From Chloroflexota bacterium (GTDB lineage Bacteria > Chloroflexota > Anaerolineae > UBA4142 > SHND01), in contig JAKOPZ010000217.1 of assembly GCA_029778615.1 (NCBI GenBank), positions 1 to 53,506 of the forward strand: DNA of 53,506 nucleotides, in the 5' to 3' direction. Every line of letters begins with the position of its first letter. The stretch's first letter is position 1. Shown here piece after piece: positions 21,007 to 31,235 of this stretch. A program made the position numbers and the translations under genes. Under the pieces are notes generated by a model. It was not told the DNA's origin. It saw only the letters and a list, made by a program, of their open reading frames with translations, and ran no database searches.

Positions 21007-21948
21007 TTATGGGTTTCCGCATAGATACGTCAGTCCCAAGACGTAGCAAAGATACCGCAAATCATCTCCGTAGTTAGGACCCGTTTCCTTGGGCACCGCT
21101 CGCAGCACCAGATGGTATGGTTCGCCCTGAGTGGACGAGGAAGGGAACAGGGCAAAAGCAAAATTGATTTGATTGCCGTAACACTGCATCACTTGTGATT
21201 GGCTCACTCGCCCGACATTCGCAATGGGAAAGGGAAACCGTTTTCCATCTGCGCCTTCAACCCACAACACAAAGCCCAACGTCTGAGCTTCAGAAGACCC
21301 CATGACGTCTACAACGGGAAGCGCACCGCATCCTTCCGCGAGATTCATGGGCGGCTCGTCATTCCAACGCATAGCGGAAAGAATTTCCGGTGTACCCACT
21401 TCAATGAGTGTGAAATCCAGCGCGTTTGCGCCGGTCCGAATTCCAATTAACTTGGGTGGTGGCTCTAGTGCCAGTGTTGGAGAAATGTCTTCGCCACGGG
21501 CAATAAAGGTCACTCCGTCCGTGTCGCGCAGTGCAAGCACTTTGCGTTTACCTTGTGTCTCCATCGGCGCCTGCAAGGTAATGGACATTTCGCTGCTGAC
21601 AGTAATTTGAAACGATGCTTCAAGACTCACGTTGCGCGTCGAAACCCGCAGGTTTTGCTGTTGTTGATTTTGCTGTTGTTGCTGTGATTGCCCACTTTGC
21701 GAAATGCAAATCACTTCGCCGGGATAAATCACGTTCATCCGCCAATATAATTGCGGATTGAGCGCGAGCAATTGCGATACAGTAGTGCCATAGCGACGCG
21801 CAATTGCCGCGAGCCAATCGCCGTAACGCACAACGTACGTTGTAGCACACCCCGCATGAGCATCCGCGACGCGCGTCGGTTGGAACGCGAGCGCGCTCCA
21901 AAGCAACGCATTAACCACAATTGCCAATAACAGAATTCGATAACGCAT
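21007..21948 (-). CDS. Secreted LysM-domain protein
   Basis: From ATG 21948 (AGGAG 8 bases upstream) the product has 313 residues: a signal peptide (MRYRILLLAIVVNALLWSALA), then one LysM domain (YVVRYGDWLAAIARRYG, QLLALNPQL, NVIYPGEVICI) at about residues 37-82. A Gln-rich linker follows (SQQQQQNQQQQN), and then a beta-rich domain of ~210 residues of unknown type with Cys pairs. LysM binds N-acetylglucosamine polymers such as peptidoglycan, so the protein should sit in the cell wall. It follows the subtilase gene by about 70 bases on the same strand and may be the third gene of the caspase-subtilase unit. Confidence 0.82.
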   Translation of the reverse strand: MRYRILLLAIVVNALLWSALAFQPTRVADAHAGCATTYVVRYGDWLAAIARRYGTTVSQLLALNPQLYWRMNVIYPGEVICISQSGQSQQQQQNQQQQNLRVSTRNVSLEASFQITVSSEMSITLQAPMETQGKRKVLALRDTDGVTFIARGEDISPTLALEPPPKLIGIRTGANALDFTLIEVGTPEILSAMRWNDEPPMNLAEGCGALPVVDVMGSSEAQTLGFVLWVEGADGKRFPFPIANVGRVSQSQVMQCYGNQINFAFALFPSSSTQGEPYHLVLRAVPKETGPNYGDDLRYLCYVLGLTYLCGNP

Positions 21949-22016
21949 GATTGCCGCTCCTTTCATTCACCGCCTCGGGCTTGGCATACAAGCCGAATTA
22001 AGAAACGATTTGATAT

Positions 22017-23414
22017 TCAAATCAATGGCACGATGCTTTGCAAGTCAGGCATGACTCCAATAAGCGGCGCCCCGGCTGGCGGGGGTGCACCATTTTTGAC
22101 AAGCGCGTCACGCATTTGTCTGGAATCCAAATGCGAATTGTGGCGCGCTTCTTGAATGCCTTGAACAACCAACGCAACCCCCGCCACAATCGCCGCCGCG
22201 CTCGAACTGCCGCTGAAATCGTTTCGATACACGTTCGTCGCAAACGGCGCGACATTTGTCGAATCGGTTGTCACCACCTGACTGCCCCACGCATAACAAT
22301 CAATGCGATTGCCAAAATTAGTCTGCAGTACTCTGCCAGACTGGTCAACGAATGGAGGCGCGCCAACCATAATCGCTAGCGTTTCCTCAAAGCTTGCATC
22401 CAAACGATTCAGGGCTGGATTTCCGAAATCGTCTGTCAACGCGTCGAGGTTTTTTCCTGCATTGCCTGCCGCTTCCACCACCACAATGCCGCGCTTGGTC
22501 GCGAGGCGAATCGCGGCGCGTTCCGCGTTGAGCACCTCAACGGGCAGCTCTGACAGAATCCGTCCGCCAATCACCGCGTCAAGGATTTGCACTTCGATTA
22601 ACAAGACACCGCCGCGCCGCAAGGCAGCCAGACCAACCATGATCGCGTTGTAACGGTCAGTCAATCCATTACCGTAATAGTGCGAAACCACTCGGACCGA
22701 GCGCACATGCGGCGCGATACCCACACACTGCCCTACTCCTTCATCCGCGCACACAATGCCCAGAACCGCAGTCCCATGACGGTGCGAAAAATCTTGATTT
22801 ACGCCTGCCATCACAGTAATCCCGTGTGACTTGAAATCTTCGTGGTCAAGTGTCCAGCCCTGCTCAACATCAACAAAACTTTGTCCTTCGCCGCCCCCGC
22901 CGTTGACTCCCCACGCTGCACGAACATCAATACCTTGAGGACTGGGTTCCAGATACGCTTGATTCGCTAATAGAATATCCAGTGCGGTTGGTGTGACAGT
23001 CGGGTCACCCGAAGGCGGGTCAACGTATGCGAGCTCGACGAATTCTTTCCATTCGGAATAGATTTTAGCAAGCTCCTCGTGTGCCCCATCTTCCGGAACC
23101 TGCGCCATATAGTAGCTCAAATAATCGGGCAGTTTAAACGGTGTGTCCAAGGTCGCGTCAGAGACCAGCTCGCGGATTTGCCCCTCTGTTAACGAAAAAC
23201 ACAAAGGTCGCATCTCCAACTGCGGAAAGCGCCGTCGAATGAGTTTCCAGAACGGATCGGTATCCAGAAATTTCTCGTCGAGAAATTTGCCGATAGATTC
23301 ATCATACGGAAAACCAACGTGGTCATGGAATTTGACGACCACATGCGGGCGATAATCATTAGCCGCCTCGCCAAGCGTTGCGAAACTATTCGGTGTGCTT
23401 GTTCGTTCAGTCAC
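22017..23414 (-). CDS. Cytosolic subtilisin-like (S8) serine protease next to a caspase-like protein
   Basis: A 465-residue protein without signal peptide or membrane helix. Residues 1-160 form an unrecognised N-terminal domain (YRPHVVVKFHDHVGFPYDES). The S8 domain follows with Asp182 (FVDVEQGWTLDHEDF), His213 (SHRHGTAVLG), oxyanion Asn318 (VEAAGNAG) and Ser404 (FSGSSSAAAIVAG), so the catalytic triad is complete. Most bacterial subtilases are exported; a signal-less form directly after a caspase homologue (18-base gap) resembles protease pairs seen in bacterial conflict or programmed-death-type operons. It may be activated by, or act on, the caspase protein; this is inference from context. 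Start ATG 23414; a GAGG lies upstream. Confidence 0.82.
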   Translation of the reverse strand: MTERTSTPNSFATLGEAANDYRPHVVVKFHDHVGFPYDESIGKFLDEKFLDTDPFWKLIRRRFPQLEMRPLCFSLTEGQIRELVSDATLDTPFKLPDYLSYYMAQVPEDGAHEELAKIYSEWKEFVELAYVDPPSGDPTVTPTALDILLANQAYLEPSPQGIDVRAAWGVNGGGGEGQSFVDVEQGWTLDHEDFKSHGITVMAGVNQDFSHRHGTAVLGIVCADEGVGQCVGIAPHVRSVRVVSHYYGNGLTDRYNAIMVGLAALRRGGVLLIEVQILDAVIGGRILSELPVEVLNAERAAIRLATKRGIVVVEAAGNAGKNLDALTDDFGNPALNRLDASFEETLAIMVGAPPFVDQSGRVLQTNFGNRIDCYAWGSQVVTTDSTNVAPFATNVYRNDFSGSSSAAAIVAGVALVVQGIQEARHNSHLDSRQMRDALVKNGAPPPAGAPLIGVMPDLQSIVPLI

Positions 23415-23432
23415 GCTTGCCTCCTCTCGCCT

Positions 23433-25619
23433 TTATGGCAAGAAACCTTGAAACCATCCTACAACGCCGCGTCGGAACACGCGTCCACCACTCAACAACA
23501 GCGGCGCGCCGTTATCAAAATCAGATGTCATCGCTGCGTAAAGTGAAATTGGACCAAAGAGCCGCTCCGGAGGTTGGTCCGTATTGAGCTTGCCTCGAAA
23601 AACCAAGCCGAGCGGCGTCGTGGCGTACCAACTGTCTTGCGCAATGAAAATTTGCGAAATCCCAATGGGAACATTGCCCAAAAACAAAACTTGCCCCGTC
23701 GCCCAATCCCGTTTCCAAATTTTGCGTTGCAAGCTGGCGCGGTCCCACGTCGCGAACAAAATGATGGACGACATTCCGGGAACAGCTGTTATTGCAGAAT
23801 AATTGACATTGCTCGGCGGATAATTTGCCGCTCCATTTATCGCATGTACGCTCTGCCAACAATCACCGCCATCAGAGCTATAGTAAAGGTCTGTTCCTTC
23901 CGGCGCGGCGCCCGGACTCGGCGAATCGCCCGGCGCGATGTAAATCAGTCCATTCGCAATCAGCAAACTTGCATTGAGCGTTGCCGCCGTTGGCAAAGTA
24001 ACTTGTTTTTCCTTTTTGCAATGTCCGCGTTCATTCAAACGCTCCCATTGCTTGCCATCAACAGACCGATAGAGCCCAAGTGCGTCGGCGACGCGACTGA
24101 CAATATACAAACGCTCCGGAGAACCCAAGACAGCGAGCGCGCCAAGTTGACGCAGTGGTGAATCCTTGTCCGCAAAATCCCAAGTCGTCCCGTTGTTATC
24201 ACTAACGATTAGTCCCACGGACGCAGTGGTCGCATACAGTTTCTTGGGATTTTCAGTTGAAGCGACAATTGCTTCAATTTTCGAACGGTCACATTTTCCT
24301 GTCGTCACGTCCAGCGCAGGAACCGATATTCGTTCCCAATTTTTTCCATGGTCGCTGCTGCGCCACAAGCCCGTGTCTGATTCATCACAACCTTCATTGG
24401 TCGAGGTCATCACAAAGAGCGTTTCGCCTATACGCGTTATCCATTTGGCATCGCCGCCGAGATATTGCGTACTAATCGGTTTCCACCCTTCCACTTGCGG
24501 TACGCCCGCGCACGCCGAGAGCGTAAGTAAGGCAAGCAACAATACCAACATGTACAGGACTAACTTGAAGCGTTCATACTGCGCCATGTACGGCAGCCAC
24601 GCGCGCGAGAAAAGCGCGGGGCGCTTGGGTTTTGTTTCTGGCTCCGCGCGTTCGTATTTGTTGACGACCAAACTGCCGACCGTAATATCGCCGCCCGCGA
24701 CGAGATTGCCGGTCGCGTTATCGCCAAAGGTTGCGGTGACATTGGTCTGAACGTACTGCACCGCGATGGTGTATTTTGGTTCCGCTTGCAGTTTCGCCGC
24801 ATCACTCGCTTGCGGCGAGGCGCCGCGATAATGCGCGATGGGAAAAGGACCCACGCCTTGCAGAAGCGTGAGCATCGGCTCCTGCACAACATTATCTTTG
24901 GCAGCCGCCGCGCCAACTTGTTGATAGATATAATCGTACAGTTCAAACAGTCCGATGTAACCGCCGCGCGCAGTGACGCCTTGCCCGTTGAGTCCATCAA
25001 TGAGCGCTTGACCGAAATAGGTGTAATCGCGTTTCCAATCAAAAAACGAAGCTTGTGAGGGACGGCTCGCGGTGATGATGGCTTGCCCCTCACCGCGCTG
25101 CAGAATCTCTTGAACAAAATTTTCGTTCGGCGCGGTGCCTGTAAACAGCGCGGGCGAGTTTGCGCCGGCGAGCGTTGGACTCAAGGCGCCCGAAAAACAG
25201 GTGTTGAGAATGACGACGAGTTTGCGGGGTTTGATATTGCGAAGGAGGGTCAGAAATTCATTCTGACTGATGCCGGTGCCGCTTTGGAAACCGGCGGGCG
25301 TTCTTTGAACATCATGCGTGCCGAGACAGTACGCGCCGTTCTCGTCCTGATTTCCATGTCCGCTGAAAAAAATCAGAACGGTATCCGTCGGCAAAGTTTC
25401 TCGCGCGAGAGCTTGCAGCGCGGCAATACATTCTGCGCGCGTCGCGGCGCCATCGGTTTTGAGTTGTACTTGGGAAGAGGGATAAGCGGCAATGCGGGGG
25501 TCACGGAGTGCGGCGGCAACCGCGCGCGCTTCGCGCGCCGTGACCGGCGCATCCAGAGTGGTATCCTGATACGTGCCTACGCCGACAATGAGCGCGCGCC
25601 CCGGCGCGAATTGTGACAT
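23433..25619 (-). CDS. Caspase-like (C14) protease with transmembrane segment and C-terminal BNR-type propeller
   Basis: A 728-residue fusion. Residues 1-260 are a caspase-hemoglobinase fold with the His-Cys dyad intact: His88 in IFFSGHGNQ and Cys141 in VVILNTCFSG. Residues ~295-320 hold a Gly-rich GNLVAGGDITVG strand motif. A transmembrane helix (~352-370) ends in LSACAG, which looks like a lipobox. The C-terminal ~350 residues contain BNR/sialidase-type repeats (LWRSSDHGKNWERI, LIVSDNNGTTWDF, LYRSVDGKQWERL, YYSSDGGDCWQSV) that should form a propeller outside the membrane. The layout suggests a sensor outside and a protease inside. It is the first gene after a good promoter, followed by the subtilase. 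Confidence 0.85.
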   Translation of the reverse strand: MSQFAPGRALIVGVGTYQDTTLDAPVTAREARAVAAALRDPRIAAYPSSQVQLKTDGAATRAECIAALQALARETLPTDTVLIFFSGHGNQDENGAYCLGTHDVQRTPAGFQSGTGISQNEFLTLLRNIKPRKLVVILNTCFSGALSPTLAGANSPALFTGTAPNENFVQEILQRGEGQAIITASRPSQASFFDWKRDYTYFGQALIDGLNGQGVTARGGYIGLFELYDYIYQQVGAAAAKDNVVQEPMLTLLQGVGPFPIAHYRGASPQASDAAKLQAEPKYTIAVQYVQTNVTATFGDNATGNLVAGGDITVGSLVVNKYERAEPETKPKRPALFSRAWLPYMAQYERFKLVLYMLVLLLALLTLSACAGVPQVEGWKPISTQYLGGDAKWITRIGETLFVMTSTNEGCDESDTGLWRSSDHGKNWERISVPALDVTTGKCDRSKIEAIVASTENPKKLYATTASVGLIVSDNNGTTWDFADKDSPLRQLGALAVLGSPERLYIVSRVADALGLYRSVDGKQWERLNERGHCKKEKQVTLPTAATLNASLLIANGLIYIAPGDSPSPGAAPEGTDLYYSSDGGDCWQSVHAINGAANYPPSNVNYSAITAVPGMSSIILFATWDRASLQRKIWKRDWATGQVLFLGNVPIGISQIFIAQDSWYATTPLGLVFRGKLNTDQPPERLFGPISLYAAMTSDFDNGAPLLLSGGRVFRRGVVGWFQGFLP

Positions 25620-25729
25620 TGAATGTTCCTTGATGCGCTCTGATGGCTATTCGTTCAGTTCAATTCAAATAGTCAATTCCGGCGTCAGCCGCATTGCCGC
25701 CGTGTTGTAATCGGTTTGCAATGTTCGAC

Positions 25730-25758
25730 ATTATAGAACGCTCGGCTACGCTTTACAA
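25730..25758 (-). promoter_or_regulatory. Promoter of the caspase-subtilase operon
   Basis: On the minus strand TTGTAA (25758-25753), a 17-bp spacer and TATAAT (25735-25730). The start should be near 25723, leaving a leader of about 100 bases before ATG 25619. Confidence 0.7.
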
Positions 25759-25871: not shown

Positions 25872-28800
25872 TTACACTGTCATCCATTCACTCGTGAGCG
25901 CCACTTTGACGCGCTCAAATTCGTCTTGCAGCGCAGGCAGCTGTTGCCGCGCACTGTCAAAATCCTCTGCCTTTGCCAACTTTTCGACCGCCCCCGCCAA
26001 TTCTGCCAGACGCAGCGCGCCCAAACTCCCCGAGCTGCCGCGAATGGCATGTGCCAAAGCGCGTATCTGCCGCACATCCTGCCCCAATATCGCTTGCCTT
26101 AACTCTAGCACACGCTGTCCGGTTTCTTCCAAATAGGAATGCAGCAACTCGTGCACGCCATCCGGATGCTCTGGTGTACTCAACGCGCGCAAACTTGCCA
26201 TCACCGCCGGGTCGAGTGGACCGATGACGTTGCCTGGAGGCAAGACCGAATGGCTTGCAGCTTGCGTTTGCAGCTCCGCGCCGTCGGTGTGCGGCAGCCA
26301 ACGTTCCAACACCGTTCGCAGCGCGTCCAAACGCACCGGCTTGGAGATGTAATCGTCCATTCCTGCCGCGAGACATGCCTCACGGTCGCCTTGCATCGCG
26401 TTCGCGGTCATTGCAATAATCGGCGTGTGTTCGCCGCTTGCCAATTCGTACCGGCGAATCGCGCGGGTCGCCGAGAAACCGTCCAACTCGGGCATTTGGC
26501 AGTCCATCAAAATCAACGCGTACGCGCCGTGCGCGCGCGACACTTGCTTGAGCGCATTCACCGCTTCCACGCCGTTGCCAACCGTCTGGACATATTCGAT
26601 GCCGAGTTTGTGCAATTGCAGCTGCGTCAATTTTTGATTCGCGGCATTGTCTTCGGCGAGCAAAATCGGCGCGTGCGTACGCGCGCGCGGCAGGGGTTCC
26701 GCGCGCGTCGCCAAGTCTGCCAATTCCTCTTCGGTTTGCGCGGGCGCGTTCTTGTCCACTTGCAGCGGCACCACAAACCAAAATGTTGAACCTTTGCCCA
26801 CCACACTCGATACGCCGATGGTGCCGCCCATCATTTCCACCAACCGCTTGCTAATCGCCAAGCCCAAGCCCGTGCCGCCATAACGCCGCGTAATGCTCAT
26901 GTCTGCCTGCGTAAAAGGTTGGAATAAACGCGCGCGCGTTTCATCCGAAATCCCAATGCCACTATCTTGTACCTGCACACGCACGCGAATTTCCTCTGCG
27001 CTGATACTTGCACCGGACGCGTCATTCACTGCATTCTCTGCTGAAATTTCCAAGACCACTTGCCCGTGTTCAGAATACTTTACCGCATTGCTCAACAAAT
27101 TCAACAACACTTGACGCAAGCGTCCCACATCGCCCAAATAACTTTCCGGCAGTGTCGGGTCAATCTTGAACGCGAGCGTCAAGCCCTTGTCACGCGCCGC
27201 CCCCGAAACAATTTCCAACGTCGTCGCCGCCAAACTAGGCAAATGAAATGAAATCGGCTCCAACGTCAAACGTCCCGCTTCAATTTTTGAAAAATCCAAA
27301 ATGTCATTAATGATGGTCAAGAGCGCGTCGCTGGAATGACGCACGATGTTGGCAAACTCGCGCTGCTCGACGGAAAGCGGCGTATCGAGCAGCATCTCGG
27401 ACATGCCGACAATGCTGTTCATCGGCGTACGAATTTCGTGGCTCATCATCGCCAAAAACTCTGACTTCATCCGCGATGCTTCCAATGCCTGGTCGCGCGC
27501 GCGCGCCAAAGCGCGTTCATCGCGTTGGCGTTGAATCGCCGCGCCCAGGGTATTTGCCGCGGCTTGCAGTGCGTCCAACTCCATCGGCGCCCAAGTATGT
27601 TCCCGCGCGCAAATTTCAAAATTGATAAAGCCCCACCATTCGCGCCCTACCATCACGGGCACCACCGCGAGGGTAGAAACGTCACGCGCCAACAAGAGCG
27701 GCTGTTCGCCTGACGGAAAATCATGAACCCTGCCAAAAAGAAATATTCCCTCCGCCAACACCGTTTCCCAGCGCGCAAAGCCCGTGCGCGCGAGCAGCAT
27801 GTTTTCGAGCGCGGGATTTTTCAGCTGCGAGGTCGCGCCCGGCGCGCACCATTCGTACTGCAGCGTCGCGCACACGCCTTCCGCATCGGGACGCGTATTT
27901 TCAAACAAGCACACGCGGTCGGCGTGAACGGTTGAGCCCAAACGCGCGAGCACGCGGTCAATGCGTTCTTGCCACGAGGGCGCGCGCAAAAATGTTTCCG
28001 CCGCATAACGCACCGTTTCAAAAATCGCGTCGCGCCGCCGCAGGATCTGGTCGCTTTCGCGCTGCGCCGTAATGTCAGTCATGTAACCCTGCGTCCACAT
28101 CGGCGCGCCCTGCTCGTCTCTCACAATCACCGCTTCGTCATGAAACCATCGCACACGTCCATCCCGCGCAATCAACCGATACTCGGCGCGAAAAGGTTCC
28201 AACGTTTCGCGGTGCTGCTGGTACGCTTGCCAGACGCGCGCGCGGTCTTGGGGATGCATGATTTGCTGCCACAGATTCAGGTTGCCCAACCATTCTTCTG
28301 CCGCGTAGCCGGTCAGCGTTTCAATCTTCGGACTCATATAGAGCGTTGTGGCAACCGTGTCCAGCGCGTCAATGTACGTCGCAGCGGGCAGTTGTTCAAC
28401 GAGCGTGCGATAGCGCGCTTCGGTGCGCCGCAGTTCGGTTTGAATGCGCTCTTGGTCTTGGAGCGCGCGTTCGAGCAATTGCTGCTGCTCGATTTGTTGA
28501 AGCCGCACGCGTTCCAAATCCACAAAAACGCGTTGACGCAAAGTGTAAATAATAATGGAAAGTAAAAACGCGCCGACGACGACAACGGACGCGTTCACCC
28601 AAAGCGCCGACGCGCCCATTTGCAAAACGACAATGCTCCAACCGACCAATGCCAGCCCCGCGTTGAGAATGTACCAGCGCGCGGAAAGAACAAACACGCC
28701 GAGCCCCACCAAGAGCAGCGCAATGCCGAGCGCTTGGTTCGCGTCCGCAATCATAAAGAGACTAAAGAGTGAGTGCATCGTCGCTGCGAACGCGAGCAGC

Positions 28801-29090
28801 CCCGCAATCCAAAATACCGCGCGCGGAGACAGAGTGCGCCGGCGCAATACAAAACCGAGCACCAAGAGCCCGAGCGACAGCGGCAGAGTAACCGCAATCA
28901 TCCGCCCGCTAAATTCTGCCTGCCAGCCGAACCAATTTGCGAGGACAAAGAGCGCGTAAAAGAGACTCAGCCCGAATGCGACATAGGGCAAATTTTTGGC
29001 TTCGGTCTCGCGCAAAACACGGTCCATGTGAATGGCGGAGGGTGAAGCGCTTGAAAGGGGAGAAAGAACTTGGGAGTTCATGCAGTTCAC
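25872..29090 (-). CDS. Hybrid sensor histidine kinase (membrane, PAS, GAF, HisKA, HATPase, REC, HPt)
   Basis: A 1072-residue phosphorelay protein. Residues ~35-185 hold six hydrophobic helices; a coiled segment (~190-222), PAS domain (~225-345) and GAF domain (~365-520) follow. HisKA has His551 (FLAMMSHEIRTPMNSI). The HATPase has N (LLSNAVKYS), G1 (VQDSGIGI) and G2 (GGTGLGLAISKRL) boxes. A receiver domain has Asp863 (LILMDCQMPELDG), and the HPt domain has His1014 (ALAHAIRGSSGSLG). All phosphotransfer residues are present, so a full His-Asp-His relay is possible; no output regulator is nearby. GTG 29090 overlaps the VWA gene stop (GTGA); ATG 29081 is the alternative. Confidence 0.92.
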   Translation of the reverse strand: MNCMNSQVLSPLSSASPSAIHMDRVLRETEAKNLPYVAFGLSLFYALFVLANWFGWQAEFSGRMIAVTLPLSLGLLVLGFVLRRRTLSPRAVFWIAGLLAFAATMHSLFSLFMIADANQALGIALLLVGLGVFVLSARWYILNAGLALVGWSIVVLQMGASALWVNASVVVVGAFLLSIIIYTLRQRVFVDLERVRLQQIEQQQLLERALQDQERIQTELRRTEARYRTLVEQLPAATYIDALDTVATTLYMSPKIETLTGYAAEEWLGNLNLWQQIMHPQDRARVWQAYQQHRETLEPFRAEYRLIARDGRVRWFHDEAVIVRDEQGAPMWTQGYMTDITAQRESDQILRRRDAIFETVRYAAETFLRAPSWQERIDRVLARLGSTVHADRVCLFENTRPDAEGVCATLQYEWCAPGATSQLKNPALENMLLARTGFARWETVLAEGIFLFGRVHDFPSGEQPLLLARDVSTLAVVPVMVGREWWGFINFEICAREHTWAPMELDALQAAANTLGAAIQRQRDERALARARDQALEASRMKSEFLAMMSHEIRTPMNSIVGMSEMLLDTPLSVEQREFANIVRHSSDALLTIINDILDFSKIEAGRLTLEPISFHLPSLAATTLEIVSGAARDKGLTLAFKIDPTLPESYLGDVGRLRQVLLNLLSNAVKYSEHGQVVLEISAENAVNDASGASISAEEIRVRVQVQDSGIGISDETRARLFQPFTQADMSITRRYGGTGLGLAISKRLVEMMGGTIGVSSVVGKGSTFWFVVPLQVDKNAPAQTEEELADLATRAEPLPRARTHAPILLAEDNAANQKLTQLQLHKLGIEYVQTVGNGVEAVNALKQVSRAHGAYALILMDCQMPELDGFSATRAIRRYELASGEHTPIIAMTANAMQGDREACLAAGMDDYISKPVRLDALRTVLERWLPHTDGAELQTQAASHSVLPPGNVIGPLDPAVMASLRALSTPEHPDGVHELLHSYLEETGQRVLELRQAILGQDVRQIRALAHAIRGSSGSLGALRLAELAGAVEKLAKAEDFDSARQQLPALQDEFERVKVALTSEWMTV

Positions 29091-30328
29091 GTCGGGACGG
29101 CGAGTTCAGTCAAGAGGCGCGCCAATTCTTGGAGCGATGCCAAATTGTGCGCGGGCAAAAAATCATCCACATACGGCAGTGCCGCTTGCAGACCGAGCGT
29201 GAGGGGTTCGTAATCGGCAGAGGCAATCAAGGGATTCAGCCAAATGATGCGGTGAACACTGCGCCGCAAGCGCGCCATTTCATGCGCGAGCAGCTGCGGG
29301 TCGCCGCGGTCCCAGCCATCGCTGATGAGCAATACGACCGCGCCGGGGCGCAGCACGCGCCGCGCCCACACGAAATTAAAAGTCTTGACCGCATCGCCGA
29401 TGCGCGTGCCGCCCGACCAATCCACAACCGAATCGGCAACGCCGCGCAGCGCGCGTTCCACACTGCGCGTCCGCAATTGGCGCGTAATGCGCGTGAGACG
29501 CGTGCCAAACACAAAACATTCCGTCTGTGTCGCGCGCTCCACATCGCGGCGTTCGCGCAGCACGTGGACAAAATGCAGCAACATGCGCGCATAATTTTCC
29601 ATCGAGCCGCTAATGTCGCACAACACGACCAACGGGCGCGGTTTGTAACGCGTTTGCTTCCACGCGGGTTCGATGAGTTCGCCGCCATATTTGAGATTGC
29701 GCCGCATCGTCGTGCGCGCATCAAAAAATTCGTCGCCGCCGCGCACGGTGCGCCGCGTCGCGCGAATGCCGGTGCCCCAGGGCAAGCGACGCATCATTTT
29801 TTTCGCTTGCTCGATTTCGCCGCGCGTGAACGCGCCAAAATCTTTGCGCCGCAGCATCTCCTGCGCGGAATAGGTTTGGATGGTGACGACTTGACCTTTT
29901 TGGAGCGCGTCCGCGTTTTCGAGCGGGGCAACCGATGTGGTCAAAAAACGCGCGGGGGGGGGTGGTTTGACAAAGGCGGGCGTGATGGCGGCAGCAGCGC
30001 GGCGCGCATCCGCCGAATAATCGCGTCGTTTCCAAAACCAATCAAACGCCTGGTCAAACAACGCCAAATCTTCGCGCCGCGCAACCAACACACAACGCGC
30101 CGCATCCTTGACCTGTGCGCGCTGCCCCAAATCAATCACATCAAGCGCGTGGAAAAAATCGTGCACCTGTGTCGCGCTCACGTTGATGCCGAGATGCCGC
30201 AGCAAACGCGCAAAGACGACAATGTTGTGTGTAAGATGAGATTGATCCAACGAGAGAGCGAGCGATAGAGTGACGCGCTCCCTTTCTCGTTCGCGCGCAC
30301 TCTCTCTCGCGCCATCACTTGGTGACAT
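29087..30328 (-). CDS. CoxE-type von Willebrand factor A protein
   Basis: A 413-residue soluble protein of the CoxE/YeiN-like VWA family. The N-terminal ~230 residues are helical and basic (VTIQTYSAQEMLRRKDFGAF, GTGIRATRRTVRGGDEFFD, MRRNLKYGGELIEPAWKQ), a well-conserved signature of CoxE. The VWA domain has a complete MIDAS start DISGSM (Asp238, Ser240, Ser242), then SGGTRIGDAV and ISDGWDRGD. CoxE works with a MoxR ATPase as a chaperone-like pair, best known from maturation of molybdenum CO dehydrogenase. No such dehydrogenase is in the window. It overlaps the MoxR gene by 14 bases. The first 20 residues are a low-complexity Arg/Glu run. Confidence 0.88.
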   Translation of the reverse strand: MSPSDGARESARERERERVTLSLALSLDQSHLTHNIVVFARLLRHLGINVSATQVHDFFHALDVIDLGQRAQVKDAARCVLVARREDLALFDQAFDWFWKRRDYSADARRAAAAITPAFVKPPPPARFLTTSVAPLENADALQKGQVVTIQTYSAQEMLRRKDFGAFTRGEIEQAKKMMRRLPWGTGIRATRRTVRGGDEFFDARTTMRRNLKYGGELIEPAWKQTRYKPRPLVVLCDISGSMENYARMLLHFVHVLRERRDVERATQTECFVFGTRLTRITRQLRTRSVERALRGVADSVVDWSGGTRIGDAVKTFNFVWARRVLRPGAVVLLISDGWDRGDPQLLAHEMARLRRSVHRIIWLNPLIASADYEPLTLGLQAALPYVDDFLPAHNLASLQELARLLTELAVPT

Positions 30329-31235
30329 AACCTAATTCTTGATACTTCTGCGCGCGCGCCGTCAATTCCTTCGCCACGCCGCCGCGCACTTGTTCCACAT
30401 CGTCTTGATATTTCAAAATCACGCCGAGCGTTTCATTCACCGTTTGTTCGTCGAGCGCAGTTTGGTCCAGTGCGGCAAGCGCGCTTGCCCAATCGAGCGT
30501 TTCCGCCACACCGGGCATTTTGTACAAATCGCGGGCGCGCAATTCTTGAATGAACGCAACGACTTGTTCCGCCAAACGCGTGTGCGCGTGCGGCACTTTG
30601 GCGCGCACGATTGTCAATTCTTTATTAAAGTTCGGATAATCAATCCAATAATAGATGCACCGCCGCTTTAATGCGTCATGAACTTCGCGCGTGCGATTCG
30701 ACGTGATGACGACGACGGGCGGATACGTTGCCTTTAACGTTCCCAACTCTGGAATCGTAATTTGCCAATCGCTCAAGAGTTCCAGCAAGTACGCTTCAAA
30801 TTCCGTATCACTACGGTCCACTTCGTCAATCAACAACACGGGCGCGCGTTCACGCGACTCTTCAATCGCTTGCAGCAATGGGCGCTTGATTAAAAATTCC
30901 GCGCTGAAAATATTGGGATGCGTGTGCGGCGCGGCATCGCCTGTGCCGTTGGCTTCGTGCGCGCGCAATTCCAAAAGTTGGCGCGCATAATTCCATTCAT
31001 ACACCGCGTGATTGATGTCGAGTCCTTCATAACACTGCAAGCGAATGAGCTCGGTGTTCAAAAGGGCGGCGAGCACTTTGGCGATTTCGGTCTTGCCCAC
31101 TCCTGCTTCGCCTTCGAGAAAAAGCGGTTTGTTTAATTTCAAAGCGAGAAACGCGGCGGTAACGAGCCCGCGGTCCGCAACATAATTGCGCGACGTGAGT
31201 TGGGCTTCAAGTTCGTTTATGGACTGAGGGAGCAT
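30315..31235 (-). CDS. MoxR-family AAA+ ATPase (CoxD-like)
   Basis: A 306-residue AAA+ protein with Walker A GEAGVGKT (residues 42-49), Walker B VLLIDEVDRSD (~134), sensor 1 VVVITSNRTREVHDAL and arginine-finger region LKRRCIYYWIDYP. This is the typical MoxR/CoxD set and size. MoxR ATPases remodel metal-enzyme or membrane complexes together with VWA proteins such as the next gene. It is the first gene of a three-gene overlapping operon ending in a hybrid kinase. ATG 31235 lies 8 bases after the -10 box without a ribosome site, so translation may begin on a leaderless mRNA. Confidence 0.92.
   Translation of the reverse strand: MLPQSINELEAQLTSRNYVADRGLVTAAFLALKLNKPLFLEGEAGVGKTEIAKVLAALLNTELIRLQCYEGLDINHAVYEWNYARQLLELRAHEANGTGDAAPHTHPNIFSAEFLIKRPLLQAIEESRERAPVLLIDEVDRSDTEFEAYLLELLSDWQITIPELGTLKATYPPVVVITSNRTREVHDALKRRCIYYWIDYPNFNKELTIVRAKVPHAHTRLAEQVVAFIQELRARDLYKMPGVAETLDWASALAALDQTALDEQTVNETLGVILKYQDDVEQVRGGVAKELTARAQKYQELGYVTK

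Follow-up and report, generated by a model that had tools for sequence, protein, structure and literature searches.

EACC1–caspase systems are two-gene membrane conflict systems (Kaur et al. 2020, PMC7159879). Herein, the N-terminal caspase is constant and the C-terminal domains vary, some proteins containing a transmembrane (TM) helix and an extracellular PBP sensor (PMC7159879). Metacaspases in which a TM helix is combined with an extracellular receptor domain (CHASE2, ANF) are known as well (PMC3501461). A TIR messenger activates a caspase-like protease according to Rousset et al. 2025 (as cited in PMC12799240), and in the Canu caspase–nuclease and trypsin–nuclease pairs, the defense protease activates a co-encoded enzyme precursor (PMC12799240). 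TM caspases with outside sensors, TIR-to-caspase signaling, and protease-activated precursors are, in other words, already known separately. The TIR–caspase system is known as type IV Thoeris, a name also found in other papers. The intracellular subtilisins of Bacillus carry a short inhibitory N-terminal extension.

The window, i.e., the whole stretch of DNA analyzed here, comprises 53,506 nucleotides of contig JAKOPZ010000217.1 from a Chloroflexota bacterium of the class Anaerolineae (assembly GCA_029778615.1, 6.0 Mb). Judged from sequence, its three-gene operon is a derived form rather than a typical representative of a cassette found in other Anaerolineae: the three slots and their order are the same, with a caspase exchanged for a TIR domain and a subtilase for an M36-like peptidase. 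The features are as follows (window coordinates).

25872-29090: hybrid histidine kinase gene, upstream of the receptor gene
25730..25758, minus strand: sigma-70-like promoter TTGTAA-17-TATAAT, 10/12 matches
23433..25619, minus strand: gene of the caspase–TM–BNR propeller receptor, 728 aa, intact
24855..25619, minus strand: caspase (C14) domain, residues 1-255, with His88/Cys141
24621..24854, minus strand: cytosolic linker, V/G/N-rich beta-repeat and basic juxtamembrane stretch, residues 256-333
24507..24563, minus strand: single TM helix, residues 353-371
23436..24506, minus strand: extracytoplasmic BNR/sortilin-like propeller, residues 372-728
22017..23414, minus strand: subtilase (S8) gene, 465 aa, intact, signal-less
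23010..23414, minus strand: probable pro-domain of the subtilase, residues 1-135
22080..22937, minus strand: catalytic domain of the subtilase, residues 160-445
21007..21966, minus strand: gene of the secreted LysM protein, intact, third in the operon

The sequence-only reading had described a promoter followed by a caspase–TM–BNR gene, a subtilase gene, and a LysM gene, and all of these are found where it had placed them. The receptor and subtilase genes are separated by 18 bases and the subtilase and LysM genes by 50 bases. The promoter-like site lies ~110 bases ahead of the receptor ATG. Four such sites occur in 5.2 kb, compared with 3.1 expected by chance; the promoter is plausible by its position upstream of the receptor gene alone and not by number. 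The neighbors of the operon resemble housekeeping genes and not a defense island, which is a point against reading it as a conflict system. Among the PADLOC models, the generic caspase model alone matches, and none was found for the subtilase or the LysM protein. One TIR gene is present in the genome, away from the operon, and none within it. Further upstream, beside the hybrid histidine kinase gene, a MoxR-like ATPase and a vWA-like (CoxE-type) gene are observed (29087-31235); in other conflict systems, MoxR and vWA proteins form the core pair, and the pair of the window, read by eye, appears to be of the plain kind.

The caspase domain is matched by PF00656 at receptor residues 7-212 with 36.5 bits, which is above the cut-off, and both His88 and Cys141 are present, in agreement with the intact caspase fold recognized earlier. 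By family match and His–Cys dyad, the domain belongs to the C14 clan and is a predicted protease. An Asn stands two residues before Cys141, the position at which metacaspases have an acidic residue. Members of the caspase family elsewhere in these genomes are fused to TCAD2, EAD7, EAD10, or TIR. TCAD2/EAD-type domains belong to the vocabulary of conflict systems in Kaur et al. 2020 (PMC7159879). The genome's second caspase (L074:12031-13368, contig C258) is 47% identical to that of the window and ends in a TCAD2 domain, as a conflict-system partner protein.

With the EACC1–caspase system, the window shares a membrane-associated N-terminal caspase that matches NF047832 at 103 bits. However, its upstream gene encodes the hybrid histidine kinase and not an EACC1 TM protein, and its protease and LysM partners are unmentioned in the PMC7159879 account of that system. 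Membership was rejected since a 5′ EACC1 gene is missing and the NF047832 score of 103.1 bits falls below the cut-off of 140 bits.

The caspase is followed by the cytosolic linker, of which the basic juxtamembrane stretch is predicted, with low confidence, to be disordered. The charge flanking the TM helix is +3 before and neutral after it, and from this bias, an N-in, C-out topology is predicted. The helix ends with an internal, lipobox-like LSAC motif (24510-24521, residues 367-370), which does not occur in the TIR relatives; processing at this site would split the caspase from the propeller. The C-terminal region matches Sortilin-Vps10/BNR with scores below the curated cut-offs. Four of its cysteines (411, 443, 534, and 587) are conserved in 8/8 aligned relatives, which suits a location outside the cell. 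The structure model of the propeller is of low confidence, and most of its closest fold matches are propellers; since few sequences were usable, the structure models are poor (mean pLDDT 48.8 and 47.4), and their fold matches lend weak support only. In combining a cytosolic caspase and an outside sensor in one chain, the receptor resembles the CHASE2/ANF metacaspases. It differs from them in the fold of the sensor, and the PMC3501461 passages on them mention no conserved protease–LysM operon.

The homology of the receptor to TIR–TM–propeller proteins extends through the TM helix and amounts to 27-31% over 330-390 aa (E 1e-25 to 1e-41). The genes of these relatives are found in 11 other Anaerolineae genomes on one contig in the order TIR–TM–propeller, M36-like peptidase, and LysM protein, all on one strand and with most gaps between -10 and about 130 bases. 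The cassette peptidase consists of 1036-1187 aa without a visible signal peptide and in several cases contains FTP/PepSY-type pro-regions. HExxH and the glutamate of the downstream EGY are present in 12/12 readable peptidases, and a simple motif search places the TIR glutamate at the expected position in 10/13. In four genomes (L086, L088, L090, and L191), a caspase–TIR gene that has kept His and Cys follows the cassette; these genes tie a caspase to this receptor type independently of the window. A TIR–nSTAND1–WD40 gene (L086:16487-19900) is located 7 bases past one of them.

Compared with this cassette, the window has the homologous TM–propeller and, in third position, a LysM protein with the family C-terminal domain. 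At its N terminus, a caspase is found instead of a TIR domain, and the second gene does not encode an M36-like HExxH peptidase, for which the window genome as a whole gives no match. A literature search, with most subscription journals outside its scope, returned no description of the cassette or of the window combination, and the cassette is, thus, apparently undescribed. Type IV Thoeris (as cited in PMC12799240) likewise has TIR and caspase in one pathway, which may also hold for the four caspase–TIR relatives. It differs in that the window operon is without TIR and that the relatives possess a transmembrane propeller, a peptidase, and a LysM protein; the window was not assigned to it, as a TIR messenger synthase is missing from the operon.

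Among 396 Anaerolineae genomes, the peptidase family occurs in 13 and the LysM family, counted by a match beyond the LysM motif, in 12, with both in 11 (hypergeometric P about 1e-18, which overstates the evidence because the genomes are related). The peptidase genomes not counted for LysM are G227, which has the C-terminal domain only, and G240, where the sequence ends at a contig edge. The sole LysM-family genome without the peptidase is that of the window, where the subtilase fills this position. Because the three slots are conserved and the peptidase and LysM families coincide, the three genes very probably work together. The operon as a functional system, as proposed from the sequence alone, is in this respect borne out by linkage, through positional homologues with TIR and M36-like proteins in the slots; conservation of the caspase–subtilase pair itself is not. 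This pair was found in no other genome searched, so that the proposed check of synteny across relatives turned out negative. Nor was the statement that caspases and subtilases recur together in conflict operons recovered for this pairing, and where Kaur et al. 2020 mention a subtilisin, which they do once, the subject is NucA–trypsin systems.

The propeller tree places the window within the TIR-bearing group, for which reason the caspase in the receptor slot is probably derived, and TIR plus metallopeptidase looks like the ancestral arrangement. In both the propeller and the LysM tree, the window is located on long branches, and its exact sister was not placed.

The LysM protein, which the earlier reading named only briefly, is a constant core member of the cassette. 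That of the window consists of a signal segment and a conserved, family-specific C-terminal domain (residues 109-319) and aligns along most of its sequence with the cassette LysM proteins (22-27%, lowest E 1e-16). Within the order to which the window genome belongs, no other member carries this LysM family at full length. Such partners, the propeller, the housekeeping neighbors, and the often filamentous habit of Anaerolineae would also fit an operon that serves envelope upkeep or development instead of defense, e.g., in wall turnover, filament fragmentation, or cell–cell contact, with protease and caspase performing regulated processing without death. This is considered unlikely, as the sporadic spread (peptidase in 13/396 genomes, and absent together with the LysM family from five genomes of the same genus) is more typical of conflict systems, and the TIR and caspase heads, as well as the TIR–nSTAND1–WD40 gene beside one copy, are more conflict-like.

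The subtilase has the triad Asp182/His213/Ser404 and the oxyanion Asn318, is matched by PF00082 above the cut-off, and shows no visible signal peptide, as the earlier reading had it. By triad and oxyanion Asn, it is assigned to the subtilases (S8). Translation starts at a GTG with AGGAGG just ahead, i.e., a strong ribosome-binding site, and a stop codon upstream of the start leaves scarcely any room for a signal peptide. The folds nearest to the catalytic domain are subtilisins, with the intracellular ones first. The N-terminal domain, which had been called unknown, is indeed present but most likely a pro-domain: a profile comparison links part of residues 1-135 to the N-terminal region of secreted relatives (95% probability), and the N termini of some of these weakly match Pfam Peptidase_S8_N and the fervidolysin pro-domain. 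A Pfam search with the subtilase N terminus alone gave no match, and a low-confidence model of this region shows a beta-alpha-beta-alpha-beta-alpha arrangement. Most simply, the sequence would be read as an enzyme with a pro-domain that has lost its export signal. The best matches in sequence and fold, the intracellular subtilisins of Bacillus (2x8j, 7xr8, and 7y6m), are also signal-less S8 enzymes; in contrast to the window subtilase with its pro-domain-like region of ~135 residues and its caspase operon, they do not stand in a caspase operon.

It could be argued that the subtilase is a bystander that by chance replaced a lost peptidase gene, so that receptor and LysM protein alone cooperate. 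Its nearest relatives are unlinked to caspases, and the arrangement is known from one genome only. This seems improbable given the spacing of 18 bases, the strong ribosome-binding site, and the location between receptor and LysM protein; in addition, the slot elsewhere holds another signal-less, pro-region-bearing peptidase, and the catalytic residues are kept. In viral contigs, a close subtilase was not found, only distant ones. Subtilase relatives at L064 and L066 adjoin a LysM gene but were not counted since the similarity is confined to the LysM motif. Near the closest full-length relative, a TM protein with TPRs and a V/G/N-rich repeat resembling the one in the window linker is encoded (L064:3308-4843).

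Compartments predicted from signals place the propeller and the LysM protein outside and the caspase or TIR head and the protease inside. Linkage, compartments, and active-site competence rest on sequence, and the order of events and their outcome are what we infer. With a probability of roughly 45%, the locus would constitute one transmembrane sensing and proteolysis unit, a rewired cassette that leads from outside sensing via caspase and protease to arrest or death. Herein, the propeller and the peptidoglycan-bound LysM protein would detect an envelope event, with phage adsorption or injection, wall damage, or a rival's effector as candidates. Clustering of receptors would join caspase domains and activate them, and the caspase would remove or disable the pro-domain of the cytosolic subtilase or, alternatively, free itself from the membrane. 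Unrestrained proteolysis would then cause the cell to stop or die. Both the subtilase and the M36-like peptidase are signal-less, and enzymes of both types are normally produced as zymogens; this agrees with a protease step in the cytosol. The principle of a protease activating a precursor is shared with Canu, whose partner is a nuclease and which is without a membrane receptor, whereas the partner in the window is a second protease.

The main difficulty of this relay is that the peptidase occurs without an adjoining caspase, so that a caspase-to-protease step is unneeded in the core cassette. Since the latter mostly has no separate caspase, the protease must be controllable by the TIR head too. 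A further point against the relay is that the caspase–subtilase form is confined to one genome. In addition, the linker between pro-domain and catalytic domain of the subtilase contains no Lys or Arg, and an orthocaspase-like basic specificity would, hence, not cleave there. The main rival reverses the order: the protease, held by its pro-domain in the cytosol, would be set off inside and cut the basic juxtamembrane linker, so that the head, caspase or TIR, would come free and act as a soluble effector. Across the family, the protease is more regularly present than the caspase, and the stretch to be cut is basic and predicted, at low confidence, to be disordered. As the propeller and the LysM protein would be left without an obvious role, this order is regarded as unlikely.

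Returning to the relay that starts outside, a broader version, held more tentatively, is a receptor system shaped like Toll signaling, in which a propeller and a wall-bound partner stand outside, a TIR or caspase head inside, and a protease precursor in the cytosol. In either version, the TIR head of the relatives would pass the signal to caspase–TIR through contact between TIR domains or via a nucleotide messenger. The window would represent a short circuit in which a subtilase replaces the metallopeptidase and the receptor carries the caspase as part of its own chain, which makes the TIR–caspase relay unneeded. If true, this would place TIR upstream of caspase and caspase upstream of protease. 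Most work on bacterial caspases and TIR proteins concerns systems that sense within the cell. The swap of TIR and caspase heads with two unrelated, alternating proteases offers a ready experiment on the order of steps and on whether a surface signal can drive a bacterial caspase–protease cascade.

The copies of the cassette vary in completeness. A scan of genome contigs returned only five loci; a phylum-wide propeller search, in which generic BNR matches swamped the results, gave no further full-length receptor, and plasmids yielded caspase domains only and no M36-like peptidase. Incomplete copies include L092 with broken frames, L192, which is cut by a contig end, and G128 and G131, which are split over contigs. 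A few cassettes carry the LysM-family C-terminal domain without a LysM motif. One copy (L092/L125) lies in a complete chromosome (Anaerolineae bacterium SSC4), where the broken frames of peptidase and LysM protein reflect decay or sequencing error. A SIR2-like gene (L192:4806-6002) is located directly upstream of one TIR–propeller cassette. In two further cassettes of one genus, the LysM proteins comprise ~500 aa (L220:8715-10208, L221:9015-10508, and L219) and apparently contain a second copy of the C-terminal domain.
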